A stretch of DNA of 64,000 bases from Arachnia propionica. GTDB lineage: Bacteria > Actinomycetota > Actinomycetes > Propionibacteriales > Propionibacteriaceae. The stretch is taken from contig NZ_RQZG01000008.1 in the NCBI RefSeq assembly GCF_003859805.1, positions 1 to 64,000 on the forward strand, in the 5' to 3' direction. The notes below the pieces were generated by a model that saw nothing but the letters and a program-made list of their open reading frames with translations, was not told the DNA's origin and made no database searches. Each line of letters opens with the position of its first letter. Position 1 is the stretch's first letter. Position numbers and translations under genes: made by a program. Positions 30,702 through 44,288 of this stretch are shown here, in pieces.

Positions 30702-31093
30702 GTGACTGCCTGTTCTGCCGGATCGTCGAGGGCGAGATCCCCGCGCGCCGCATCCACGAGGACGAGACCGCCATCGCCTTCCTCGACATCAACCCGTGGC
30801 AGCTCGGCCACACCCTGGTGATCCCGCGGCGCCACGTCGTCGACGCACTCGCCGACGAACACGCCTTGGCCGAGATCGCCCCCGCGGTGCAGCAGGTGGG
30901 CACCCTGCTCAAGGACAGGCTCGGGGCGAGTGCCTGCAACATCCTCAGCAATGCCGGGGCCGACTCCGGCCAGGAGGTCTTCCACCTCCACGTCCACGTG
31001 CTGCCCCGATACGCTGACAACCCCGGTATCGCCGCGATGCGCGGTGTCATCGACGAGGACCTCGCGACGGTGCACGCCAGGATCATGGGGTGA
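30698..31093 (+). CDS. HIT-family nucleotide hydrolase (HinT-like)
   Basis: Histidine-triad protein of 131 residues that probably cleaves adenosine phosphoramidate or AMP-lysine type bonds. N-terminal zinc-type [12 protein letters not shown], substrate-binding [20 protein letters not shown], and the triad [10 protein letters not shown]. Overlaps hisF by 4 bases and touches the TerD-like gene by 1-4 bases, so all three are co-translated. Confidence 0.92.
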
Positions 31094-33171
31094 TGAGCTG
31101 GACCGGGGAACAGCTGTGGCGGATCAACGCCGCCACCATTCGTCGACGCGCTGCCGTCTTCCTGCCGCACCGTGGCGGTCCCGAAATCGACGATCCGGCG
31201 CGGATCGATGCCGCCGTCGTGGCCCTGGCGGAGCTGGGCTACCGGCTCGACGACTGCGCGAGGGAGGCCCTCGTCTCGGCCGAGGACGCCTGGGTGCTGG
31301 TGCAGGCCGCTGCGGCTCTCGAGGGGGCCGATGTCAGCTACGAGCCCTTCTACCCGAACTTCCCGCAGCAGGTGCGCGATGCCTCCGCCTTCACCCTCCG
31401 CCTCAACGCCCTGTTCCACTACCTGGGCGATATCACAGGGAAACGGTGGGTGCCGCGATACGACCGCACACAGCGTCACGAGCTGGAGGATGTCCCGAAG
31501 GCGACGGTGCTGACCGCGCTGCGGGAACACGAACTGCGGCAGATCGTCGTCGATCTCATGACCCAGGGCCAGCCGTTCTCCGAGGAGGACCGCGCCGATC
31601 TGGTGGCCTTGAAGGATTTCACCCCGAGGCAGGTACCGCAGATCGAGGTCCGGGAGAACCTGGCCCGGCTGAGTGTCACCTTCCCGGAGCTCGACTTCAG
31701 TGCCTCGGTGAAGACCGCCACCGATGTGCTGCGGCTCGCGGTCGCCATGAGTGGCGGTGATGTGTCGTTGGCCACACGAACGAGGTTTCGGACCTTCAGC
31801 CGCCCGGAGCGGCGACGCCTCCTCGGGTTGTTGGAGGAGCACGGCCGCCCGGAGGACCTGCGGCGCTGGGAGGAACGCTGGAAGCGGTTGACCCGGCACC
31901 TGCGCCCCGGCGACCACAAGGCCCGTTTCCCGAAGGCCGCGGAGATGCTGCACGCGCTGTCGGCGGGCACCCTGCCCCGCAGCTTCGAGTCCCACCTGGA
32001 GGAGGTGCTGGAGCGCGGCGACGTCCCGGCCGCGCTCAACCTGCTCACCCATCGCCCCGGGATCTTCGCCCGGCGGCTGGCCCACCTGATCCGGGCGTGC
32101 CGGGAGAACGCCGCGCTGGAGGAGCAGGTGGCGGCGACGTTCGCGTGGGTGACGGGGGAGGTCTCCACCTTGGTGCTGGTCCAGCTGTGGCAGTACTTCG
32201 CCTCCCCGGACAACACGGTGCTGCCCGATCGGGTGGTGGCCATCAAGACCGGCGCCGACCAGCGTTCCCGCATCATCGCCAACCGGCGCAGCCTGCGCGG
32301 GGTGGATGCACGCCTGGTCGAGGTGATCGAGGACGCGCTGCGGGCCCGGGCCCGGCTGGGGCCGACCTGGGTCAACCGGGAGCTGTTCCGCCAGTACGCC
32401 GTACCGCTCGGGAACCGCTCCGCCTCACCCGGGCTGCGCACCGCAGGCCGGGGATCACGGTTGCGCATCCCCGAGGGCAGGGTGGTGCGTTTCTTCATGC
32501 ACTGGCGGGACCTCGAGGAGGGGCCGGAGCGGCGAGTCGACCTGGACCTGTCGGCCTTCTGTGTCACCGAGGACTTCCAGCAGACCCAGGACATCGCCTA
32601 CTACAACCTCAAGGAGAACGGCGCCACCCACTCCGGGGACATCACCTCCGCCCCGCAGGGAGCCGCCGAGTTCATCGACCTCGAACTCGAGACCTTGCGG
32701 GGACGCGGGTGGCGCTACGTCGTGATGACCGTGCACTCCTTCACCGGGCAGCCCCTGTCCCTGGTGCCACAGGCCTGGGCCGGGATGATGAGCCGCGACG
32801 GCCACAGCGGCGAACTCTTCGACCCCCGCACTGTCGAGATCCGGCTCGACCTGACCTCCACCGGATGCAACGCCACCCCGTTGGTGCTGGACCTGGAGAC
32901 CCGGGAGACCATCTGGTGGGACCACAACGCCGGGGTGACCGCGGGGGCCCTGCGCAACCTCGACGTCAACGCCAACCGCACCCTGGTCCACCTCCAGCAC
33001 GCCGTGCTGGGCCGTGTCATGACCCTCGACCATCTCATCTCGCTGCTCGCCACCGAACTGGTCGACGATCCGGCCCGAGCCGAGGTGGTCTTCGACGATC
33101 CCGCGGTGGCCGGACGACGGGCCATCGCACCCTGGCAGAGTGAGTGCATCCTGCAGCTGCTGACCGGGTAG
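31093..33171 (+). CDS. large protein with C-terminal TerD-like domain
   Basis: Cytoplasmic protein of 692 residues with no signal peptide or membrane segment. About 1-430 is helical with conserved-looking Arg/His-rich patches (WVTGEVSTLVLVQLWQYF, RRSLRGVDARLVEVIEDAL) and matches no domain I know well; similar N-terminal parts occur in large TerD-containing proteins of streptomycetes and myxobacteria. From about 470 it has a TerD-type fold (EGPERRVDLDLSAFCVTEDF, DITSAPQGAAEFIDLELETL, RYVVMTVHSFTGQPL), a calcium-binding stress-response domain. A GTG at 31090 is an alternative start. Tellurite resistance should not be assumed; other ter genes are absent. Confidence 0.75.
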   Translation: MSWTGEQLWRINAATIRRRAAVFLPHRGGPEIDDPARIDAAVVALAELGYRLDDCAREALVSAEDAWVLVQAAAALEGADVSYEPFYPNFPQQVRDASAFTLRLNALFHYLGDITGKRWVPRYDRTQRHELEDVPKATVLTALREHELRQIVVDLMTQGQPFSEEDRADLVALKDFTPRQVPQIEVRENLARLSVTFPELDFSASVKTATDVLRLAVAMSGGDVSLATRTRFRTFSRPERRRLLGLLEEHGRPEDLRRWEERWKRLTRHLRPGDHKARFPKAAEMLHALSAGTLPRSFESHLEEVLERGDVPAALNLLTHRPGIFARRLAHLIRACRENAALEEQVAATFAWVTGEVSTLVLVQLWQYFASPDNTVLPDRVVAIKTGADQRSRIIANRRSLRGVDARLVEVIEDALRARARLGPTWVNRELFRQYAVPLGNRSASPGLRTAGRGSRLRIPEGRVVRFFMHWRDLEEGPERRVDLDLSAFCVTEDFQQTQDIAYYNLKENGATHSGDITSAPQGAAEFIDLELETLRGRGWRYVVMTVHSFTGQPLSLVPQAWAGMMSRDGHSGELFDPRTVEIRLDLTSTGCNATPLVLDLETRETIWWDHNAGVTAGALRNLDVNANRTLVHLQHAVLGRVMTLDHLISLLATELVDDPARAEVVFDDPAVAGRRAIAPWQSECILQLLTG

Positions 33172-33362
33172 ACTCTCACCTGCCCGGCCATGTGGGTGCA
33201 TCCTTCTGACCTGGAACCCTCGCGTCCACGCCTCCCGGGCCCCACAACTGGTCCGACCTTTCATAAGAAAGTTCTCATCAAGCCCTGATGGTCCTCTACT
33301 GGACATCGGCAACTCTGGAGTTGATGAAGTTCCAGACTGATGTCCACGAGGGGGCCACGACC
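33169..33362 (+). promoter_or_regulatory. leader region before the glycosyltransferase operon
   Basis: TAGACT at 33169-33174 starts with the stop codon of the TerD-like gene and could be a -10 for a leader of about 180 nt. Two small palindromes lie in it: CTTTC-ATAA-GAAAG (33258-33271) and CATCA-AGCCC-TGATG (33276-33290). This is the AT-richest intergenic patch in the centre of the window and a good operator candidate. A GAGGGGG ribosome site precedes the ATG at 33363. Confidence 0.4.
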
Positions 33363-34574
33363 ATGTCGAAGACAACGCGAGTGCTGCTGTACAGCCACGA
33401 CTCCCAGGGGCTCGGGCATGCCCGTCGCAACCTTGCCATCGCACATGCCCTGGCCCGTCGCCTGCCGGAGATCACCGGCGGTGAGGTCTCCGGTCTGATC
33501 GTCTCCGGCCTGCCGCGCAGCGCCGAGTTCCCGCTGCCCGCCGGGTTCGACTGGATCACCATCCCCGGCATCGCCAAGGGCAGCAGCGGCTACCAGCCCC
33601 GCTCCCTCAGTGGTGACTTCGCCTCCGTGGTGAAGCTGCGTTCCCAGCTGCTCGCCGCCGCCATGCTCGGTTTCGAGCCGGACCTGGTGATCGTCGACCG
33701 TCACATCCTGGGGGTGGCCGAGGAGCTCCGTTCCCCGCTCATGCAGCTGCGTGAGCACTGCCCGAACACCCGGATCGTGCTGGGACTGCGTGAGGTCCTC
33801 GACGAGCCGGAGGTCGCCGCCAAGGAATGGGCCAGGCTCGGAGACCCCGAGCGGCTCCTCGACTTCATCGACGAGGTCTGGGTCTACGGCGACCCGGTCA
33901 TCCATGACCCCTTCGCCAGTGGAGAGATCCCCGCGACGTTGCGTGAGCGGGCCCGCTTCACCGGATTCCTCGCGAAGGATCGCCCCGGTGTCCCCGAGGA
34001 GGAGAACCTCAGCGACTCCCCGTTCGTGCTGACCACCGTCGGAGGTGGCTCGGACGGCTACGACCTGCTGCACACCGCCGTCGCCATGACTCCTCCCGCA
34101 GGTCATGAGCACGTCGTGGTGACCGGCCCGCAGCTGAGCGATGCCGAGTTCAACGCCATCCGGGCCGAGGCCCCTGCCGGGACACGTGTGCTGCGCACCT
34201 GGCCGGGACTGGCCCATCAGATCGGTGAGGCCGCCGCCGTGATCTCGATGGCCGGGTACAACACCACCTGTGAGATCCTCGCCACCTCGACCCCGGCACT
34301 GCTCGTGCCCCGTGAGGTGCCGCGCAAGGAGCAGTTGATCCGGGCCCGTGCCCTGGAGCGGGCCGGCGCCATCGACCACATCCGGTGGGACGAGATCACC
34401 CCGGAGGCCCTCAGCGACTGGGCAGCCCGGGCGGTCACGACGCGGATCGACCGTGACCTGGTTCGGGTCGACGGCCTTGCCGCTGTGGCCGACATCGCTG
34501 CCGATCTGCTGGAGCGCGCCCGGGTCGACCTCCTCGATCCCCAGACCGGTGTCGAGCTGGTGACCGTGGCATGA
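33363..34574 (+). CDS. MurG-like (GT28-type) glycosyltransferase
   Basis: First gene of the operon, 403 residues, soluble or membrane-associated. GT-B fold with an N-terminal LYSHDSQGLGHARRNLAIA loop as in MurG-type enzymes, and a C-terminal donor site (TTVGGGSDGYDLL, MAGYNTTCEILATSTPALLVPREVPRKEQ). It probably transfers a sugar from a nucleotide donor to a lipid or glycan acceptor. The ATG at 33363 is favoured by the purine tract GAGGGGGCC; a further in-frame ATG upstream lacks one. The stop overlaps the next glycosyltransferase by ATGA. Confidence 0.85.
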   Translation: MSKTTRVLLYSHDSQGLGHARRNLAIAHALARRLPEITGGEVSGLIVSGLPRSAEFPLPAGFDWITIPGIAKGSSGYQPRSLSGDFASVVKLRSQLLAAAMLGFEPDLVIVDRHILGVAEELRSPLMQLREHCPNTRIVLGLREVLDEPEVAAKEWARLGDPERLLDFIDEVWVYGDPVIHDPFASGEIPATLRERARFTGFLAKDRPGVPEEENLSDSPFVLTTVGGGSDGYDLLHTAVAMTPPAGHEHVVVTGPQLSDAEFNAIRAEAPAGTRVLRTWPGLAHQIGEAAAVISMAGYNTTCEILATSTPALLVPREVPRKEQLIRARALERAGAIDHIRWDEITPEALSDWAARAVTTRIDRDLVRVDGLAAVADIAADLLERARVDLLDPQTGVELVTVA

Positions 34575-35770
34575 AACGCATCGGTTACGTCCTGAAGGTC
34601 TACCCCCGGTTCTCCGAGACGTTCATCGTCACGGAGATCCTGGCCCGGGAATCCCACGACGAGGAGATCACGATCTTCGCCCTGCGCCCCACCACCGACG
34701 CCCGGTTCCACCCGGAGATCGCGCGGGTGCAGGCCCCCGTGAGGTGGGTTCCCCGACCACTGAAGAGCAGCGACTTCTGGCTGGAGATCGCGAGGACCCT
34801 CGGTGAGTTCCCCACCTTCCAGGAACCCTTCGCGAGGATCGCCCCGCAGCTGGCAGACCTGCCCACCTCCGAGGTGGCCCAGGGGATCGCCCTGGCCCGG
34901 ATGGCACTGGACGAGGGCATCGACCACCTCCACGCACACTTCGCCTCCATGGCCGGACGGGTGGCCTGGATCGCCTCCCGTCTGAGCGGCCTGCCCTACA
35001 CCGTCACCACCCATGCCAAGGACATCTACCACGAGTCCGTGGATCCGGTGTGGCTGCGTCGGGTGTGCGGCGACGCCCAACAGGTCATCGCCATCAGCCA
35101 GTTCAACCAACGTCACCTCGAGCAGGTGCTGGAGGGCACCGGGGCCAACGTGGTGCTGCAGTACAACGCCCTCGAGCTGGACCGGTTCATCTACTCGGAT
35201 CCGGCTCCCCGCAGCGAGGTGCTGCGCATCTCGGCCGTGGGGCGGCTGGTGCCGAAGAAGGGATTCGCCGATCTCATCGCCGCCGTGGCCCGGCTGGAGG
35301 TGCCCGTCGAGGTGCAGATCGCAGGTGACGGCGAGGAACGTGCGGCGCTGGAGGCACGGATCACGGAGGCCGGCCTGGGGGATCGGGTGCGTCTGATCGG
35401 GCCGAGGACCCAGAGTGAGGTCATCGAACTGGTGCGCAACTCGGATGTCTTCGCCGCCCCGTGCATCCCGGCCGAGGACGGCAACATCGACGGCCTGCCC
35501 ACCGTCGTGCTCGAGGCGATGGCTCTGGGCACCCCGGTGCTGGCGACCTCGGTGAGCGGTCTTCCCGAGGTGATCCACCACCTGGAGACCGGCCTGATGA
35601 TTGAGCCGGGTGACGTGGCCGCGCTGACCGAGGCCCTGACCCGGATCGCGACCGGACAGGTCCCGGTGGAACGACTGGCCCGCAACGCCCGCGCCCTCAT
35701 CGAGGAGCGTTTCGACAGCCGACGGCAGGCGGCCCGACTTCTTGAAATGCAGAACGACGAGGTGAAGTGA
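34571..35770 (+). CDS. GT4-family glycosyltransferase (first)
   Basis: Retaining GT-B enzyme of 399 residues. N-terminal YVLKVYPRFSETFIVTEI is typical of polysaccharide GT4 enzymes of the WcaL/colanic type. The donor domain has VGRLVPKKGFADLI, the EX7E-like stretch EDGNIDGLPTVVLEAMALGTPVLAT, and a GGDGEE-like IAGDGEER. It may add the second sugar of the glycan. Overlaps its upstream neighbour by 4 bases and lies 2 bases before (or overlaps) the next gene. Confidence 0.88.
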   Translation: MKRIGYVLKVYPRFSETFIVTEILARESHDEEITIFALRPTTDARFHPEIARVQAPVRWVPRPLKSSDFWLEIARTLGEFPTFQEPFARIAPQLADLPTSEVAQGIALARMALDEGIDHLHAHFASMAGRVAWIASRLSGLPYTVTTHAKDIYHESVDPVWLRRVCGDAQQVIAISQFNQRHLEQVLEGTGANVVLQYNALELDRFIYSDPAPRSEVLRISAVGRLVPKKGFADLIAAVARLEVPVEVQIAGDGEERAALEARITEAGLGDRVRLIGPRTQSEVIELVRNSDVFAAPCIPAEDGNIDGLPTVVLEAMALGTPVLATSVSGLPEVIHHLETGLMIEPGDVAALTEALTRIATGQVPVERLARNARALIEERFDSRRQAARLLEMQNDEVK

Positions 35771-35772
35771 CG

Positions 35773-36903
35773 ATGCGTGTCGCATACGTGAGTGTCGATC
35801 CGGGTATCCCGGTCTTCGGGACGAAGGGGGCCTCGGTCCATGTGCAGGAGGTGATCCGTGAACTGCTGTCCCGAGGACACCAGGTGCGGGTCCACACCAC
35901 GCGCAGGGGAGACCGGGTGCCGGCGGACCTGACCGGGCTCGAGGTCGTCGAGCTCCCGATGACCTCCCACGAACCCGCCGCCCGGGAGCAGGAGCAACGA
36001 CAGGCCTCGGCGGAGATCGCCCGACGCGTCCTTGCCGATGGTGCGGATCTGGTCTACGAGCGGTACTCCCTGTTCAGCACGGTCATCGCCGAACTGGCCG
36101 GGAGCGCCGGCATCCCCGGGATCCTCGAGGTCAACGCCCCGTTGATCGAGGAGCAGGGCAACCACCGCAGCCTCGTCGACGAGGCCGCGGCCTCCCGCGC
36201 CCTCGTCGCCCAGGCGGAGGCCGCCAGCGCCGTGATCTGTGTCTCCGACCCGGTACGTGACTGGGTCCTGGAGCGGGTTCCCGCTGCCCGGGCCCACACC
36301 GTTCCCAACGGGGTCAGCCTGACCCGGATCCGTCCTCAGCTCGAGGCCCCCGGCGAGGTGGTGGTCACCTTCGTCGGCACCCTCAAGCCCTGGCACGGGG
36401 TCTCCGACCTGATCCAGGCCGCCTCCCTGGCCAAGCAGCCCTGGCGGGTGCGGATCATCGGCGACGGCCCCGAACGGGAGAACCTGATCACCCAGGCCGA
36501 GGCCCTCGGGGTGAAGGTCGACTTCCGTGGAGCCGTCGCGCCCAGCGAGATGCCCGAGCACCTGGCCGGATCGGCCATCGGTGTCGCCCCGTACCCCGAC
36601 CTCGGCGGGGGCAACACCCAGTACTTCTCGCCGCTGAAGGTCTACGAGTACCTCGCGGCGGGGCTGCCCGTCGTCGCGTCCGCTGTCGGTCAGGTGCCGG
36701 AGATCATCGCGGACTGCGGGGTGCTGGTGCCACCCTCCGACCCTGCCGCGCTGGCCTCGGCCATCGATGATCTCGCCGCCGACCCGCTGCTGCGGGGGCA
36801 ACTCGGCGGTCGTGCCCGTTGTGCCGCCGAGCAACGCCACAGCTGGGAGGCCGCGGTCACCCGGATCCTCCGGCTCGCGGGCGTGGAGGCGATGCATGGC
36901 TGA
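35773..36903 (+). CDS. GT4-family glycosyltransferase (second)
   Basis: Second GT4 enzyme, 376 residues. The acceptor domain starts MRVAYVSVDPGIPVFGTKGASVHV; the donor side has VGTLKPWHGVSDLI, IIGDGPEREN and SPLKVYEYLAAGLPVVAS with the EX7E glutamates replaced or shifted. A GTG at 35767 would overlap the previous stop; the ATG at 35773 follows GAGGTGAAG. It overlaps the ABC exporter gene by 8 bases. Confidence 0.87.
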   Translation: MRVAYVSVDPGIPVFGTKGASVHVQEVIRELLSRGHQVRVHTTRRGDRVPADLTGLEVVELPMTSHEPAAREQEQRQASAEIARRVLADGADLVYERYSLFSTVIAELAGSAGIPGILEVNAPLIEEQGNHRSLVDEAAASRALVAQAEAASAVICVSDPVRDWVLERVPAARAHTVPNGVSLTRIRPQLEAPGEVVVTFVGTLKPWHGVSDLIQAASLAKQPWRVRIIGDGPERENLITQAEALGVKVDFRGAVAPSEMPEHLAGSAIGVAPYPDLGGGNTQYFSPLKVYEYLAAGLPVVASAVGQVPEIIADCGVLVPPSDPAALASAIDDLAADPLLRGQLGGRARCAAEQRHSWEAAVTRILRLAGVEAMHG

Positions 36904-38698
36904 GGGCAGGCGCTCGGCGATGCGCCGAACTCTCAGTCTCGTCGGTCCTGACGTGGCACCTCACCGGTGGCTCATCGTCGGGGGCACGTTCTCGTTGCTG
37001 CTGGACGTCGTGTTCCGGGTGCTCGAGCCCTGGCCCATGAAGATCGTCATCGACGCTGTGACGAACTCACTCGGGGCCGAGGTCTCGGGACGCCCTGCCA
37101 GCATCGGCCTGCTGGTGACCTGTGGGGTGGCGTTGGTTCTCATCGTCGCGTTGCGGGCCGCCAGCAACTACCTGGCAACCCTGTGCTTCGCGCTGATCGG
37201 TGCCCGTGCCGCGACCAGCCTCCGGGCCAGGGTGTTCCGGCACGTCCAGGGACTGTCGCTGCAGTTCCACGCCCGCAACCGCAGCGCCGACACCGTGCAG
37301 CGGTTGGTCAGCGACGTGGCCCGCATGCAGGAGGTCGCCACGACGGCCGGGCTGCCCCTGCTGGCCAACGTCGCGACCCTGCTCGTGATGATCGTCGTCA
37401 TGGTCATCCTGGATCCGCTCCTGGCCCTGGTGGTCGTGCTGGCGATCCTCGGCTTCGCTCTCACCTCCAGACGTACCTCCGGGAAGATCACCTCGGCTGC
37501 GCGACGTACCCGCAAGGGGGAGGGCCAGCTGGCCAACACCGCACAGGAGAGTCTGGCCGCGATGCCCGTGGTCCAGGCCTACGGCCTCGAGCGCACGGTG
37601 GAGGGACACTTCACCGGGGCCAATCTGGTCTCCCTCAAGCAGGGGGTCCAGTCCCGACGCTTCGCCGCCCGCCTGGAGCGGGGCACCGATGTGATCGTCG
37701 GTCTCGCCACCGCCGTCGTGCTGATCGGTGGTGCCTTCCGGGTGCTCAGCGGCGACATCACCCCCGGCGACCTGGTGCTGTTCATCAGTTACCTGCGCAC
37801 CGCCATGAAGCCCCTGCGGGACATGGCGAAGTACACGGGACGGATCGCCCGCGCCAGTGCCTCCGGGGAACGGGTGGCTGATCTGCTGGAGCAGGTCCCC
37901 GACATCACCAGCCCCGCCGATCCGGTGCCGCTCGGTCACGTGCGTGGTGCCATCGACTTCCAGCAGGTCCGGGCCTCCTACGACGGTCACCAGGTGTTGC
38001 ACGGCATCGATCTGTCGGTCGCCCCGGGGGAGCGGGTCGCCATCATCGGTCCGTCCGGTTCCGGCAAGTCGACCCTGGTCTCGTTGCTGGTGCGGGCCAT
38101 GGATCCCACCTCCGGCTCGGTCCGACTCGACGGGAAACCCCTCACCCGACTCGACCTCGCCGAACTCAGGGGCAACATCTCCCTGCTGCACCAGGAAGCC
38201 GTGCTGTTCACCGGCACCATCCGTTCCAACATCCGGTTGGGCCGGGCATCGGCCAGTGACGAGGAGGTCGAGGCCGCCGCGGTGGCCGCCAACGCGCACG
38301 ACTTCATCATGGCCCTGCCCGATGGGTACGACACGGTGGTGGGGGAGCGCGGCGGTACCCTCTCCGGCGGGCAACGTCAGCGCATCGCCATCGCACGGGC
38401 GTTGCTGCGCGGCTCCAGGGTCGTGGTCCTCGACGAGGCCACCACCGGACTCGACCCGGAGGGTGCGGCGCTGGTGCTCGATGCGATCGACCGGCTCGCC
38501 GCAGGCCGTACCACCCTGGCCGTCACCCATGACGCCCAGGTGGTGCTCCGCGCCTCCCGTGTGGTGTGGATCGAGAACGGACACATCCGCATGGACGCCT
38601 CCCCGCAGGAACTGCTCGCCACCAACCCGGTCTTCAGGTCCTGGATCGAGGCGAGTGGCCGGGATGCCGATTCGATCACCGTCGGGGAGCCGGAATGA
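36896..38698 (+). CDS. ABC exporter, fused membrane and ATPase domains
   Basis: Half-transporter of 600 residues that should act as a homodimer. The membrane domain (about 20-310) has six helices; the nucleotide-binding domain has Walker A IGPSGSGKST, Q-loop LHQEAVLF, signature LSGGQRQRIAIARALL, Walker B VVVLDEATTGLD and H-loop VTHDAQ. Type I exporters with glycosyltransferase neighbours usually flip lipid-linked glycans or lipids. ATG at 36896 lies 6 bases after GGAGG. The stop overlaps the first kinase-like gene by 4 bases. Confidence 0.9.
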   Translation: MAEGRRSAMRRTLSLVGPDVAPHRWLIVGGTFSLLLDVVFRVLEPWPMKIVIDAVTNSLGAEVSGRPASIGLLVTCGVALVLIVALRAASNYLATLCFALIGARAATSLRARVFRHVQGLSLQFHARNRSADTVQRLVSDVARMQEVATTAGLPLLANVATLLVMIVVMVILDPLLALVVVLAILGFALTSRRTSGKITSAARRTRKGEGQLANTAQESLAAMPVVQAYGLERTVEGHFTGANLVSLKQGVQSRRFAARLERGTDVIVGLATAVVLIGGAFRVLSGDITPGDLVLFISYLRTAMKPLRDMAKYTGRIARASASGERVADLLEQVPDITSPADPVPLGHVRGAIDFQQVRASYDGHQVLHGIDLSVAPGERVAIIGPSGSGKSTLVSLLVRAMDPTSGSVRLDGKPLTRLDLAELRGNISLLHQEAVLFTGTIRSNIRLGRASASDEEVEAAAVAANAHDFIMALPDGYDTVVGERGGTLSGGQRQRIAIARALLRGSRVVVLDEATTGLDPEGAALVLDAIDRLAAGRTTLAVTHDAQVVLRASRVVWIENGHIRMDASPQELLATNPVFRSWIEASGRDADSITVGEPE

Positions 38699-39816
38699 AC
38701 CACGAACTGGTCTCACTGCTCACCCGGGTGCTGGACCCCGACTGGTTGGGTGAGCACACCGGTGCACCGGTGCGCGCGGCGCGGCTGAGGGTGAAACCGC
38801 GCACCTCGATCAGTGTCTCGCTGGTCTCCGGGGACGACGGCGTGGGCGTCGGCTGGATGCGGGTGCTGTGGCCCATCAACCATGTCAAGGCCGATCTGGC
38901 CCTGCGGGATGCCGAGAGACACGGCTACCACGTGGACGTGAGGCACGTCACGCAACGGCTCGTCACCGTCACCGGCCCCACCGAGGGGGATCCGAAGCTG
39001 CGACGCAACCTCCGTCGTGCCCTCTCGGGAGGGCTGCTCAGCGCCTGGCCACCCGCAGAGCTGCTGCGGTACAACCCGATGCGCCGCCTCGTGGTGCGCG
39101 ACGGTGACCGGGTGGTCAGGATCGCCGCGAAGGCCGCCCCGGGTGAGGAGGAGATCCTGGATCTCGTCTCCGGGATCGTCCCGTGCCCTGAACGTCTCGA
39201 CGACCGCAGCCTGCCCGGGTGCAGTGCCGTCCGTTTCACCGGTGACGGTGATCTCGCGGCCCTGCCCAGCAGCGCCGGGGCCGAACAAACCGGAAGGCTC
39301 ATCGCACGGCTGCACGACGCTGTCGTCGCTCCCGGTGAGCTCCATGACCACTTGGGCTCACGCGGCCTCGACCCGGTGCGGCAGGGTCTCTGCCACGCCG
39401 ACCTGCTGGATCATCTCGCCCCCACGCTGGCAGCCAGGGTCCGCAGGACGCTCGCCCAGCTGCCCCCCTGGCCCACCACCGGTGGGGTGTTGTCCCATGG
39501 TGATCTCTCCCCGGACCAGGTGCTGGTGGTCCGGGACGGGACGAGGGTGTGGCTCACCGACTTCGACCGGGCACAGTTGGCCCCGGTCGCGGCGGATCTC
39601 GGTTCCTTCCTGTCCGAGGCCACCCCCGAGATCGGAGCCGCCTTCCGCGCCGGATACGAAGCAGCCGGTGGGACGCCGCTGGATGAGGAGGACATCGCCC
39701 ACGGCATCGCATGGTCCTGGACCCTGCGGTTGATGGACCCGCTGCGCCATGCCGACCCGAACTGGCAGGAGCGGGTGGAGCAGCAGCTGGACCGGATCGA
39801 CGAGGTGCTGTCATGA
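38695..39816 (+). CDS. APH-fold phosphotransferase-like protein (first)
   Basis: Protein of 373 residues with the aminoglycoside/choline-kinase fold. The catalytic loop reads VLSHGDLSPDQVLV and the metal loop LTDFDRAQLAPVAADLGSFL. The HxDxxxxN motif has Gln in place of the second metal-binding Asn. The N-terminal lobe is hard to recognise, with a Lys candidate around VRIAAKAAPG. Substrate unknown; in this context it could phosphorylate a sugar or lipid carrier. It is coupled by ATGA to both neighbours. Confidence 0.8.
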   Translation: MNHELVSLLTRVLDPDWLGEHTGAPVRAARLRVKPRTSISVSLVSGDDGVGVGWMRVLWPINHVKADLALRDAERHGYHVDVRHVTQRLVTVTGPTEGDPKLRRNLRRALSGGLLSAWPPAELLRYNPMRRLVVRDGDRVVRIAAKAAPGEEEILDLVSGIVPCPERLDDRSLPGCSAVRFTGDGDLAALPSSAGAEQTGRLIARLHDAVVAPGELHDHLGSRGLDPVRQGLCHADLLDHLAPTLAARVRRTLAQLPPWPTTGGVLSHGDLSPDQVLVVRDGTRVWLTDFDRAQLAPVAADLGSFLSEATPEIGAAFRAGYEAAGGTPLDEEDIAHGIAWSWTLRLMDPLRHADPNWQERVEQQLDRIDEVLS

Positions 39817-40826
39817 CGCTGCTCACCACGTTGCTGGAACGTCCCGACGTGACCCGGGTGTGGCCCGGGAAACGCGGTTCACTCACCTTCGAGTGGGTTG
39901 ACGACCGCGGTCTGGTCCGGGCAGGGAGGTTGGCCGCCGACGGTGGGATGGATCTTCTCGACCACGCCGTCGACCCGGCCCTCCCAGGACTCTCGGACAG
40001 GACCCCGGGACCTGTCGTGGTCCACCGTTACGGCCGCCGGGCGGTGGCGGTCGGGGATGATCGGGTGGTCAAGTACACCCGGGGGGGACACGCGGCAGCC
40101 ATCGTGGCCAACTCCACAGGCTTTGCCACGCTGTGCCGACACGCCGGGTTGCGCACACCGCAGGTGCTGCACCACGACGACGCCAGCATCGAGTTCGACA
40201 GGTGCCCCGGCACGAGTCTCCATGATCTGGGTGATGCCGGCATCGAGGGGTGGCGCCACTTCGTCGCGGCCTGGCCGGAGCTCGTGGCCACCTCGGTTCC
40301 CCTGCCCAGCCATCGGGGCATCGACGAGGCCACCACCCTGCAGCGCTGGTACGAGCACGCCACCCGGCACGGAGCCGTTCCGGAATCGGCCCGGCTCGCC
40401 GACCGGGTCACCGCCCTGTGCGACGCCTTGGCGGCCGGCGACGGCCCAGCGGTGCCCATCCACCGGGACCTGCACGACAAGCAACTGCTCTGGGACGGCA
40501 GCGAACTGACGCTGCTGGACCTGGACCTCGGGTCGAGCGGGGAGATCGCCCTCGACCTCGGGAACCTCTGGGCCCATGCCGAGGTGCGACGACGGCAGTC
40601 GGTGCTGTCGACGACCGGCCTGACCGTGCTGAGCGACCTGCTCGGGCAGGCCGTCGAACAGCTCAGCGCCGACCCGGATCGAGTGGCACTCCACCGCAGC
40701 GCGTCACGGCTGCGCATCGCCTTCGTCCACGCCTTCCGGCCTGCGGACCGAGGTTGGCTCACCGGTTGGGTGGAGGAATGCCTCGCCCAACCCCTTCATG
40801 CCCCATTGGAAAGGACACTGTCATGA
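39813..40826 (+). CDS. APH-fold phosphotransferase-like protein (second)
   Basis: Protein of 337 residues, a distant relative of the preceding one. The N-lobe has DRVVKYTRGG with a candidate ATP-binding Lys; the catalytic loop is VPIHRDLHDKQLLWDG and the metal loop LTLLDLDLGSSGEIALDLGN. Again Gln stands where Asn is usual. Sharing this change argues for a family habit rather than decay. Overlaps ugd by 4 bases. Confidence 0.8.
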   Translation: MTLLTTLLERPDVTRVWPGKRGSLTFEWVDDRGLVRAGRLAADGGMDLLDHAVDPALPGLSDRTPGPVVVHRYGRRAVAVGDDRVVKYTRGGHAAAIVANSTGFATLCRHAGLRTPQVLHHDDASIEFDRCPGTSLHDLGDAGIEGWRHFVAAWPELVATSVPLPSHRGIDEATTLQRWYEHATRHGAVPESARLADRVTALCDALAAGDGPAVPIHRDLHDKQLLWDGSELTLLDLDLGSSGEIALDLGNLWAHAEVRRRQSVLSTTGLTVLSDLLGQAVEQLSADPDRVALHRSASRLRIAFVHAFRPADRGWLTGWVEECLAQPLHAPLERTLS

Positions 40827-42133
40827 GAATCTCAGTCATCGGATGCGGCTACCTGGGTGCCGTCCACGCCGCCTGCATGGCACGTCTCGGTCACGACGTC
40901 CTGGGGGTGGACGTCGACCGGAACAGGATCGCGGCCCTGAAGGAACACCGTCCCCCGTTCTACGAGCCGGGCTTCGAGGAACTGCTCGCGGAGGTGGCCG
41001 ACTCCGGGAGGCTGCGGTTCACCTCGGAGCCGCAGATCATCGACCTGGGGGCGGTCGACGTCCACTTCATCGCCGTCGGCACCCCGCAGGGACCGACCGG
41101 TGCGGCGGATCTCAGCTATGTCGAATCCGCCATCGAGTCGATCCTGCCCGCGCTGCGGCTGAACCCGGGGGCGCTCGTGGTGGGCAAGTCGACGGTGCCG
41201 GTCGGGACCGCGTCCAGGCTGGCCGACAAGGTCGAGGCCGCCGGGGGGCGGCTGGTGTGGAACCCGGAGTTCCTCCGCGAGGGGTTCGCCATCGAGGACA
41301 CCCTGCGGCCCGACCGGATCGTCTACGGGGTCAGCCCCGACCCGCACCATGCCGGGGAGGGGCAGCGGGTCCTCGACGAGGTGTACCTCGATCTCCTGGT
41401 CGCGGGGATTCCGCGCCTGGTGACCGACTACGCCACCGCCGAGCTGGTGAAGGTGGCGGCGAACTCGTTCCTCGCCACGAAGATCAGCTTCATCAACGCG
41501 ATGGCCGAGGTCTGCGAGGCCGCCGGGGGGGATGTGACCGCGCTGGCGGAGGCCATCGGGTACGACGTGCGGATCGGCAAGCAGTTCCTCAAGGCCGGGG
41601 TGGGCTTCGGCGGGGGGTGCCTGCCGAAGGACATCCGGGCCTTCGTGGCCCGTTCGGAGGAGCTCGGCGTCAGCGGGCTGGCCTTCCTCAAGGAGGTCGA
41701 CCGCATCAACCAGGCCCGCCGCGACCGGGTGGTGGAGCTGGCGACGGCGACACTGGGGGAGGACCTGGCAGGGGCCCGGATCGCCGTGCTCGGGGCGTCG
41801 TTCAAGCCGCGCAGCGACGACATCCGGGACTCGCCCGCCCTCGAGGTGGCCGCCAGGCTGCAACGGGCCGGGGCGAGTGTGACGATCACGGATCCGAAGG
41901 CCCTGCCAGCGGTGCGGTCCCGGTGGCCTGAGCTCAACGCGGTCGACTCCATCGACGAGGCCCTGCGCGATGCCGACCTGGTGCTGGTGCTCACCGAGTG
42001 GGACGAGTACCGGGAGCTCGACCCGACCGCTCTGGAGCAGGTGCGTCGTCGCATCGTCATCGATGGCAGGAACTGCCTCGAACCGGCGGTGTGGCGGGCG
42101 GCCGGCTGGGACTACACCGGGCTTGGGCGCTGA
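40823..42133 (+). CDS. ugd: UDP-glucose 6-dehydrogenase
   Basis: NAD-dependent oxidation of UDP-glucose to UDP-glucuronate, 436 residues. It has the Rossmann loop VIGCGYLGAVHAACMA, GKSTVPVGT, NPEFLREGFAIED and the catalytic Cys266 in VGFGGGCLPKD, with the C-terminal NAD-sugar domain to the end (GASFKPRSDDIRDSP). It gives the operon its donor, so the exported glycan probably contains glucuronate or a derivative. ATG overlaps the second kinase gene. Confidence 0.94.
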   Translation: MRISVIGCGYLGAVHAACMARLGHDVLGVDVDRNRIAALKEHRPPFYEPGFEELLAEVADSGRLRFTSEPQIIDLGAVDVHFIAVGTPQGPTGAADLSYVESAIESILPALRLNPGALVVGKSTVPVGTASRLADKVEAAGGRLVWNPEFLREGFAIEDTLRPDRIVYGVSPDPHHAGEGQRVLDEVYLDLLVAGIPRLVTDYATAELVKVAANSFLATKISFINAMAEVCEAAGGDVTALAEAIGYDVRIGKQFLKAGVGFGGGCLPKDIRAFVARSEELGVSGLAFLKEVDRINQARRDRVVELATATLGEDLAGARIAVLGASFKPRSDDIRDSPALEVAARLQRAGASVTITDPKALPAVRSRWPELNAVDSIDEALRDADLVLVLTEWDEYRELDPTALEQVRRRIVIDGRNCLEPAVWRAAGWDYTGLGR

Positions 42134-42168
42134 ACGCACGGACCTCCCGACACGGGACAATGGGTCTC

Positions 42169-43629
42169 ATGAAACGGCTCCTGAGATTCGTGATCGGACC
42201 GATCTCGGTTCGCATCATGCTGGCGGTGATCCTCGTCTCCGGAGTGGCGCTGGCGATGTCGGGAACCATCGTGTGGCTCTTCCAGGAGCGTCACCTGGAG
42301 GAGATCGCCACGCAGAGTCTGCAGCGGGTCCGGGCGCGTCTGGAACAGGAGATCAAGCAGCCCGATCCCAACACCGGGGAACCCTACGCCTCGATCTCCG
42401 CGGTCCTGCACACCCACATGCAGCACAGTGTCCGCAGTCCTGACGCGGGTGAGGTGGGATTTCTGGGAACAGCGGTCGCCTACGTGACGCAGGCCGGGAC
42501 CCAGATCCGCCCGGAACGTGACAAGGATCTGATCATGCAGATCCGGCAGGACCTGCGTGGCACCGACAGCGTGATCCGCACGATCGAGACCCCCGTCACC
42601 CGGTACCGCGTCCTGGTGGTGCCGATCAGCCTGGGCGAGGAGACCGGAGGTCTCGCCCAGGCGATCGACATGCAGAAGGCCAGCGCCGAGCTGCGGGACA
42701 CGATGCGGCAGTACACCGTCGTCGCCGTGGCGACGGTGCTGCTGCTGATCGTGCCCACCTGGCTGGTCATGGGGCGTCTGCTCAGGCCCATCGGGGAACT
42801 GCGACGTGCCACCGACGCCATCGACGAGAACGACCTGACCACGCGGGTCTCGATCCGGGGCCGGGACGACCTCTCGGCACTGGCCCGTGCCGTCAACCGC
42901 ATGTTGGACCGGGTGCAGGCGGCGGTGGAGGCGCAGCGGAACCTGCTCGATGACGTGAGCCATGAGCTGCGCACCCCGATCACCATCGTCAGGGGACACC
43001 TGGAACTGATGGACGCCTCCGACCCGGAGGACGTCAACGCCACGCGGAAGGTGTCCATCGACGAGTTGGACCGGATGGGTGCCCTGGTCTCCGACCTGCT
43101 CCTGCTGGCCAAGGCCGAGCAGGCGGATTTCGTGGTCCCGGTCCCGACGGAGCTGGCCGAACTGACGCTGCAGGTGTTGACGAAGGCGCGCGCCCTGGGC
43201 AATCGCGACTGGCGGCTGGAGGGTCTCGCCGAGGGCACGGCGGTGCTGGACCCCGGGCGGATCACCCAGGCGTGGCTGCAGCTGGCCTCCAATGCGGTCA
43301 AGTACTCGGCCGAGGGAACGTGCATCGGGATCGGCAGCACGGTGGTGGGGTCCGACGTGCTGCTCCACATCCAGGACCAGGGCATCGGGATGAGCGCGGA
43401 GGAGATGGCGACGGTGAGCACCCGTTCCTTCCGAACGGGATCAGCTGCGCTGCTCGCCAGCGGACACGGCCTCGGACTGAGTATCGTGAAGAGCATCGCC
43501 GAGGCCCATGGGGGACGGCTCGAGATCCAGTCGGAGGAGGGGCGTGGTTCCCTCTTCACGTTGCGTGTCCCGAGGACCGGGCCGGAGGGCGGTGAGGGCA
43601 CTCTCGCACAGGAAGGGCATGGATCATGA
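42169..43629 (+). CDS. sensor histidine kinase with HAMP domain
   Basis: Histidine kinase of 486 residues. Membrane helices at about 15-38 and 180-200 frame an extracytoplasmic sensor of about 140 residues with several charged and His residues. HAMP follows (RLLRPIGELRRATDAI), then HisKA with DDVSHELRTP and a HATPase domain (NAVKY, DQGIGMS, GHGLGLSIV). The ATG at 42169 fits a GACAAT hexamer 7 bases upstream (leaderless); ATG at 42160 is possible. It is co-translated with the regulator at 43626 and lies 35 bases after ugd. Confidence 0.9.
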   Translation: MKRLLRFVIGPISVRIMLAVILVSGVALAMSGTIVWLFQERHLEEIATQSLQRVRARLEQEIKQPDPNTGEPYASISAVLHTHMQHSVRSPDAGEVGFLGTAVAYVTQAGTQIRPERDKDLIMQIRQDLRGTDSVIRTIETPVTRYRVLVVPISLGEETGGLAQAIDMQKASAELRDTMRQYTVVAVATVLLLIVPTWLVMGRLLRPIGELRRATDAIDENDLTTRVSIRGRDDLSALARAVNRMLDRVQAAVEAQRNLLDDVSHELRTPITIVRGHLELMDASDPEDVNATRKVSIDELDRMGALVSDLLLLAKAEQADFVVPVPTELAELTLQVLTKARALGNRDWRLEGLAEGTAVLDPGRITQAWLQLASNAVKYSAEGTCIGIGSTVVGSDVLLHIQDQGIGMSAEEMATVSTRSFRTGSAALLASGHGLGLSIVKSIAEAHGGRLEIQSEEGRGSLFTLRVPRTGPEGGEGTLAQEGHGS

Positions 43630-44288
43630 GCAGCATCCTCATCATCGAGGACGAGCCCAGGATCGCAGGTTTCATCGCCAAGGGCCTCAAGGCCGCCGGG
43701 TACACCTCGGAGACCACCGGGCAGGGCAGGACGGGGATCGAGCTGGCCTCGCAGGGAGATTTCGCGTTGGTGATCCTCGACGTGGGACTGCCTGACATGA
43801 GCGGTTTCGACGTGCTGGAGGAGATCCGGGGGCGCGGTGTCGAGATTCCTGTGATCGTGTTGACCGCACGCTCCTCCGTGGCGGACCGGGTCACCGGACT
43901 CGAGGGCGGGGCCGATGACTACATGGCCAAGCCCTTCGCCTTCGAGGAGCTCCTGGCCCGGGTGCGACTTCGGCTGCGTCCCTCGGGGGAGCGTTCGCAG
44001 CAGGCGACGGAGATCAGCCACCGAGGGCTGACCCTGGACTATCACAGCCGACGCGCCAGGGTGGATGGGGTCTGGGTGGACCTGTCGGCCCGGGAGTTCA
44101 CCATGGTGGAGGTCTTCCTGCGCAACCCCGGACAGGTGCTCAGCAGGGAACAGCTGCTGAGCCTGGTCTGGGGCCTCGACTTCGACCCGGGCACGAACGT
44201 GGTGGGGGTCTACGTCTCCTACCTCAGGAACAAGCTGGGCAAGGAACGTTTCGAGACCGTTCGGGGCATGGGTTACCGCTTGGTCTGA
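43626..44288 (+). CDS. OmpR/PhoB-family response regulator
   Basis: Regulator of 220 residues. Receiver with IIEDEP, phospho-acceptor Asp in VILDVGLPDMSG and Lys in AKPFAFEELLARV; winged helix ending GTNVVGVYVSYLRNKLG and VRGMGYRLV. ATGA overlap with the kinase gene. It is the likely controller of the glycosyltransferase operon; the palindromes at 33258-33290 are a possible target (inference). Confidence 0.92.
   Translation: MSSILIIEDEPRIAGFIAKGLKAAGYTSETTGQGRTGIELASQGDFALVILDVGLPDMSGFDVLEEIRGRGVEIPVIVLTARSSVADRVTGLEGGADDYMAKPFAFEELLARVRLRLRPSGERSQQATEISHRGLTLDYHSRRARVDGVWVDLSAREFTMVEVFLRNPGQVLSREQLLSLVWGLDFDPGTNVVGVYVSYLRNKLGKERFETVRGMGYRLV

Follow-up and report, generated by a model that had tools for sequence, protein, structure and literature searches.

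A glycosyltransferase, ABC exporter and paired-kinase cassette in Arachnia propionica, a candidate glycan export unit with relatives in several phyla

Export of glycans through ATP-binding cassette (ABC) exporters is already known, as with the ABC-exporter-dependent O antigens, whose chain terminator WbdD is a kinase that acts on the glycan before export. The locus considered here occupies positions 33363-44288 of the first 64,000 nucleotides of Arachnia propionica contig NZ_RQZG01000008.1 (assembly GCF_003859805.1; this whole stretch is the window) and consists of nine genes, A to I (Table 1). Like the WbdD systems it combines glycosyltransferases (A, B and C) with an ABC exporter (D) and, by analogy, with putative glycan kinases, E and F, which have the aminoglycoside phosphotransferase (APH) fold; a nucleotide-sugar dehydrogenase (G) and a sensor-regulator pair (H and I) follow. 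Unlike Wzm/Wzt, D is a half-size type IV exporter, and the cassette kinases come in twos, are sometimes fused to D and are accompanied by no methyltransferase. What is new is the pairing of kinases with a maltokinase-like catalytic set, the fusions that join such kinases to the exporter, and the spread of the unit across phyla; the kinases are the most distinctive part of the unit.

Other described systems share some of these features. HepA and NdvA-ChvA are likewise half-size ABC exporters within polysaccharide clusters that have no flippase, but D scores far below the corresponding cut-offs, at 303 bits (NF045513, cut-off 725), 304 bits (NF010178, 733) and 252 bits (TIGR01192, 585), and three cyanobacterial D relatives also remain under the HepA cut-off (383-410 bits). 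We know of no APH pair in these systems. The teichuronic acid (tua) operon offers TuaC/TuaH-like GT4 enzymes and a TuaD-like dehydrogenase; all the cassette counterparts fall under the cut-offs (TuaD model, 346 bits against an equivalog cut-off of 700), and counterparts of TuaA, TuaB and TuaE are missing from the cassette, which has an ABC exporter and kinases instead. Nor does the locus resemble a Wzx/Wzy capsule or exopolysaccharide locus: as an earlier note on this DNA had held, no Wzy polymerase, flippase or initiating transferase was found in the cassette or the ten neighbouring genes scanned with Pfam, and the one PF02397 initiating transferase gene of the genome lies on a different contig. 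The same note knew of no described system with this gene set, and none appeared among the matches listed from the open PMC literature, part of which were judged by title and start of abstract, with subscription papers and preprints outside the scope.

The nine-gene arrangement is confirmed, all genes lying on the plus strand with Pfam support for the families and with the overlaps first noted. Within the host genus, A is present at E <= 1e-100 in 15 of 35 other genomes, and in all 15 neighbourhoods fetched A-B-C is intact to the contig limits, followed by D in 14 and by two APH genes in 13; the exceptions (L040 and L043) are cut by contig ends. Because this gene order recurs in every one of these same-genus loci, to the contig limits, and in other phyla, chance is excluded. 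Of 396 Actinomycetota genomes, 18, the window's own among them, have A at E <= 1e-30, and 29 have an F-like kinase at E <= 1e-10, by a profile trained on the host genus and a few relatives; the kinase occurs in 16/18 A-positive versus 13/378 A-negative genomes (Fisher p = 7.6e-19). Of the 17 other Actinomycetota A loci, 15 have B after A and 15 have D on the same contig no more than 12 kb away; at L131 and L168 the contig ends before D is reached. At L167, one of the 15 with D, the exporter gene is about 6.5 kb from A on the opposite strand, and a second contig of the same genome carries C-D-APH-APH.

The colinear order A-B-C-D-APH-APH is shared by several Actinomycetota families, an Ardenticatenales locus (L055) with fused kinases, and plasmids of Paracoccus and Escherichia coli. 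In 201 Chloroflexota genomes A was found in 10, centre genome included; D is nearby in eight of the nine others and APH in two, and genes for UDP-glucose dehydrogenase (UGD), an epimerase or a regulator are common near A. Tree distances for A, B and D over 41 loci are correlated (Spearman 0.49, 0.62 and 0.76; highest of 500 label permutations, 0.19), in part because of shared species history. The co-occurrence search proposed in the earlier note thus yields co-conserved neighbours. Its placing of UGD in the operon holds for the window, where G is present; among relatives G is an optional member of the unit, following in 7/15 host-genus loci, and some relatives carry a short-chain dehydrogenase/reductase (SDR) epimerase beside the cassette genes.

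The two kinases are homologous to each other (hhalign probability 96.8%), and both belong to the APH-fold superfamily, with 61 bits for E and 40 bits for F against a PF01636 gathering cut-off of 23.2 and with invariant catalytic residues: H268, G269, D270, Q275 and D289 of E in 14/14 sequences, and K87, H217, R218, D219, H221, Q224, D236 and D238 of F in 15/15. Residues D270/Q275/D289 of E and D219/Q224/D236 of F correspond to the catalytic Asp, the Gln at +5 and the DxD motif of maltokinase and glucosamine kinase. According to two papers on those enzymes (PMC4306142, PMC6520443), maltokinase binds Mg via Gln310 and Asp322 with Asp305 as putative base, glucosamine kinase uses D300, Q305 and D317, and in both a His two residues past the catalytic Asp contacts the sugar. 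This +2 position is H221 in F, giving it D-x-H as well, and Ser272 in E; other lineages often have Tyr. Among 99 kinase domains scored, a set that includes close relatives and lone kinases, the motif was recognised in 77, of which 73 have Gln and four Asn. Classical APH enzymes carry Asn at that position. Many clusters pair one kinase of the HGD type with one of the HRD type, an arrangement seen also in the fused kinases of Paracoccus and in the two of E. coli. Set against the likeness in fold and catalytic residues are the weak profile match to maltokinase 4o7o (3.1e-4 for E, 0.56 for F), the absence from both proteins of the signature Q-x(2)-RE-x(2)-YA-x(3)-LP-x-W of the SjGlcNK type of glucosamine kinase, and the placing of the genes in a glycan export cassette. 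Besides the cassette kinases, the window genome carries another F-like APH gene at a separate site (G000:C35:122850-123581, L098), with no cassette glycosyltransferase detected within the surrounding 20 kb.

Gene fusions link the kinases with the other members of the unit. Exporter and kinase share one open frame at six loci (L048, L049, L050, L100, L111 and L164). Pfam detects both domains in four of these (L049, L100, L111 and L164); for L048 and L050, where it misses the APH part at 1e-3, the fusion rests on a custom kinase profile. The fused kinase matches the E profile in L100 and L111, making these D-E fusions, and the others (L048-L050 and L164) are of the D-APH form; the L111 genes, which overlap by 4 bases, are arranged as A-B-C-(D+E)-F. 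Kinase-kinase fusions occur at L055, at L048-L051 and in Paracoccus. At L062 a C relative is fused to an APH kinase, as judged from Pfam and an F-profile match at the same place, the custom kinase profile having missed the kinase part. SDR epimerase-A fusions were found at L155, L156, L158 and L159 (seen by Pfam for L155). Five kinase domains are present in each of L048, L049 and L164, and six in L050.

These fusions bear on whether E and F could be free-sugar kinases for precursor supply or salvage, the exported glycan being left unphosphorylated. Maltokinase and glucosamine kinase, which share the catalytic set, act on free sugars (PMC4306142, PMC6520443), and F retains the sugar-contacting His. 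We nonetheless consider this unlikely: exporter and GT4 partners act on a glycan and not on a free sugar, the cassette genes include no mutase or nucleotidyltransferase, and the glucosamine-kinase C-terminal signature is lacking.

The exporter falls in a group of its own. In quick, unrooted trees, 40/40 cluster-linked D proteins entered fall in one group of 42 with a Shimodaira-Hasegawa-like approximate likelihood ratio test (SH-aLRT) support of 98, the remaining two members being one exporter of G067 and an additional exporter next to the L101 cluster. Outside it lie 19/21 other exporters, chosen from the best exporter matches of five of the same genomes, and E. coli MsbA, MdlA and MdlB (3/3). 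CydC, CydD and YojI were also outside in an earlier quick tree and were left out of the later one because of their long branches. Membership of D in a characterised drug or peptide exporter clade, which by the earlier note would have refuted its reading, was not borne out: among the best 25 of 189 models listed for D, it is under the cut-off of every drug, peptide and bacteriocin exporter model, and it does not group with MdlAB or YojI. Six D relatives give 428-470 bits with MsbA, 347-396 with the peptide and protein exporters TAP2 and HlyB, and 210-302 with the SmdA/B and Tet46 drug models, and they too stay under the cut-offs of the drug and peptide models listed. D itself reaches 343 bits with the MsbA model TIGR02203 (cut-off 602), and MsbA identity was rejected.

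Two rival readings turn on these scores. A drug inactivation and efflux cassette, in which an antibiotic would be glycosylated, phosphorylated and pumped out, draws on the APH and macrolide-glycosyltransferase resemblance, on an ABC exporter with a sensor and on the best matches of the E profile in the PDB, which are antibiotic kinases. These matches, however, reflect which APH enzymes were solved; the D relatives score well below their MsbA values with the drug models; and the unit has three glycosyltransferases, to which relatives add UGD, an epimerase, a polysaccharide lyase, a deacetylase or an alginate porin. Exporter scores, exporter tree and partner genes alike make such a cassette extremely improbable. 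The other rival follows the earlier note, which had preferred a glucuronate-containing glycolipid or short glycan, perhaps phosphorylated: here a membrane lipid would serve as acceptor, and an exporter of the MsbA kind would flip the glycolipid. D and the six tested relatives do score best with MsbA or an MsbA-related model, no polymerase was seen in the scanned genes, and the profile of A, whose C-terminal half matches MurG structures, also matches monogalactosyldiacylglycerol (MGDG) synthase weakly (9.2e-5). Yet every MsbA score is under the cut-off, the D group excludes E. coli MsbA, and the alginate-export porin encoded beside the cassette on the E. coli plasmid is in keeping with a soluble or free-chain product. 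A glycolipid is on balance rather unlikely and was not borne out as the best reading.

The plasmid and proteobacterial copies supply the evidence on the kind of product. An A relative is carried by 275 of 72,556 plasmid records, always at <60% identity, and 223 of these are from Rhizobium or Sinorhizobium; nine regions were inspected, from incomplete gene tables and in one case from a record with no annotation. On Paracoccus aestuarii p296221, a regulator and sensor face A-B-C-D and a 740-residue double kinase. E. coli pCFSAN004181P (L254), typed as conjugative, has A-B-C-D-APH-APH followed by the alginate-export porin (PF13372, 1.3e-23) and a nucleotide-sugar dehydrogenase, its A-D proteins being 32-44% identical to those of the window. 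In three rhizobial regions (L250, L255 and one of Sinorhizobium meliloti), relatives of A and B occur together with a UGD and a cyclase; at L250 the third glycosyltransferase is A-like. An ABC exporter is annotated at L255 and none beside the S. meliloti genes, which a polysaccharide lyase adjoins. In L255, plasmid pA of Rhizobium etli CIAT 652, the A and B relatives beside the UGD, cyclase and exporter genes bear the names redA and redB. Both of the annotated Roseobacter regions include glycosyltransferases, a histidine phosphatase and a deacetylase, with UGD in one; in Azospirillum, A has no annotated partners and lies close to the start of the record. A Sulfitobacter exporter-like gene (L258:14056-17040) has a C-terminal cyclic-nucleotide-binding domain.

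Because of the porin and dehydrogenase of the E. coli copy and the lyase of S. meliloti, a secreted uronate glycan is favoured over a glycolipid. The preferred reading, which we hold at about even confidence, is a mobile, self-contained cassette making a secreted, probably phosphorylated, uronate-containing glycan that is exported through D. In this scheme G, joined in some relatives by the SDR epimerase, would supply UDP-glucuronic acid or a derivative, and A, B and C would build the chain on an acceptor at the cytoplasmic face; E and F would add phosphate to the glycan at the membrane, during or after its synthesis, D would export it, with the Escherichia copy adding an outer-membrane porin of the alginate-export type, and H-I would tune expression. 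Phosphorylation may license export or end the chain, by analogy with WbdD and the ABC-exported O antigens. More specifically, and as a tentative possibility, D would be a kinase-licensed exporter that admits its substrate only after phosphorylation by the HGD/HRD pair, with the kinases working in cis at the exporter, as one polypeptide with it in several lineages, and the module passing between phyla, partly on plasmids. The earlier note's interpretation is partly supported: a co-conserved unit for building and exporting a glycan, two kinases included, is upheld, and the glycolipid reading and the standing of the sensor pair and UGD are revised.

Several observations weigh against the cassette as so pictured. 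Seven of the nine Chloroflexota loci (centre excluded) have no APH beside the cluster, one of them having a 36-bit fragment at its edge, and APH was not found in the sampled cyanobacterial loci; because of these APH-free loci, the kinases cannot be obligatory. No APH is annotated in the three rhizobial regions, at the level of their incomplete gene tables, and at L250 the exporter is remote. The alginate porin was seen in one plasmid lineage; at least 80% of the 10-kb region that holds it is present in 18/5426 E. coli genomes, always plasmid-borne. Finally, 22/99 APH domains are without the motif and may be inactive. Taken with the fusion of kinase domains to D in some lineages, these last raise a further alternative, in which one or both kinases are pseudo-kinases or scaffolds regulating D or the glycosyltransferases; the invariance of the catalytic residues across the aligned E (14) and F (15) families makes it very unlikely.

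A histidine phosphatase adjoins the exporter at six cyanobacterial and acidobacterial loci (L056, L058, L059, L063, L066 and L067) in which no APH was detected; in the E. coli and Paracoccus copies, which have kinases, no phosphatase is annotated. At the two Roseobacter loci the phosphatase is beside glycosyltransferases. The idea of a phosphatase substituting for the kinases was not retained.

The sensor-regulator pair is a recurrent but optional partner. Within the host genus it stands directly after UGD in 5/15 loci. At 18/60 loci, copies of the same locus being left out, an I-type regulator (>200 bits) is found no more than 6 kb from the A-D core, a count in which relatives are non-independent, some loci are truncated and part of the loci also served to train the profile; in the own genome, with 10 OmpR-type regulators in 3.4 Mb, about 5% would be expected by chance. 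In a tree that took in eight of the nine own-genome paralogues, 15/18 cluster-linked regulators and 6/7 from lone-APH loci are apart from those eight (support 86). The subfamily of I is common, occurring in 49/198 Actinomycetota at E <= 1e-75, and of its 30 best loci (window included) six have APH no further than 1.5 kb away, and one locus other than the window is next to the cassette. The cassette's "own sensor", in the words of the earlier note, is accordingly a recurrent neighbour, and an optional one from a common regulator subfamily. APH genes without a cassette stand beside a sensor-regulator pair at L106, L110 and L113-L116, mostly of the I subfamily (6/7 non-cassette loci fetched from other genomes; L117 without).

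Table 1. Genes of the cassette and the region preceding it, with positions in the window
Feature	Position	Strand	Basis
Intergenic region 5' of A, likely promoter region (predicted)	33172-33362	+	Alignment to relatives
A, GT28/MurG-like glycosyltransferase, 403 amino acids	33363-34574	+	PF04101, 6e-9
B, GT4 glycosyltransferase	34571-35770	+	Pfam GT4 models
C, GT4 glycosyltransferase	35767-36903	+	Pfam GT4 models
D, half-size type IV ABC exporter	36896-38698	+	Pfam ABC_membrane and ABC_tran
E, APH-fold kinase, HGD type	38695-39816	+	PF01636, 1.9e-16, 61 bits (longer frame scanned)
F, APH-fold kinase, HRD type	39813-40826	+	PF01636, 4.5e-10, 40 bits (longer frame scanned)
G, nucleotide-sugar dehydrogenase, probably UDP-glucose 6-dehydrogenase	40823-42133	+	Three UDPG_MGDP_dh Pfam models; TIGR03026
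H, sensor histidine kinase	42169-43629	+	Pfam HAMP/HisKA/HATPase
I, OmpR-family response regulator	43626-44288	+	Pfam Response_reg and Trans_reg_C

The genes are closely packed, with overlaps of 4, 4, 8, 4, 4 and 4 bases from A/B through F/G and of 4 bases at H/I; G and H are 35 bases apart if the in-frame ATG at 42169 is taken as the start of H. Translations and the hydropathy scan of H were taken from a start at 42181 and show two hydrophobic segments flanking a loop of about 140 residues. The intergenic region upstream of A is mostly conserved in an alignment with two close relatives. A carries an N-terminal SHDxxGLGHxRR motif and has its closest matches, among the records found, in a Propionibacteriaceae metagenome-assembled genome (90% identity) and in Arachnia propionica (80%). 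It was rejected as MurG or a MurG duplicate, with 33 bits against a TIGR01133 cut-off of 250; the true MurG is elsewhere in the 3.40-Mb host genome (269.5 bits). No NCBIfam model listed for A-F reaches its cut-off (for B and D, the best 25 listed), the relatives of B, EpsE and TuaC, being among those under it. G passes only the general nucleotide-sugar dehydrogenase model TIGR03026 (404 bits, cut-off 189.8). Strong matches among the ten scanned neighbours are all to housekeeping families (HisF-like, HIT, LexA, NrdR, class II ribonucleotide reductase and DSHCT helicase), and three neighbours have no match. Just upstream of the cassette, 31090-33171 encodes a 693-residue protein without a Pfam match that is kept in the two closest relatives.

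Record annotation scatters the parts of this unit under such names as 'aminoglycoside phosphotransferase family protein', 'putative multidrug ABC transporter' and 'glycosyltransferase', and some putative drug kinase annotations may hide glycan kinases. The exporter-kinase fusions make the coupling of phosphorylation and export a testable claim. The environmental Paracoccus that carries the cassette is accessible material. Together, these findings point to a cross-phylum route, independent of both Wzx/Wzy and Wzm/Wzt, for glycans that are secreted or displayed on the surface.

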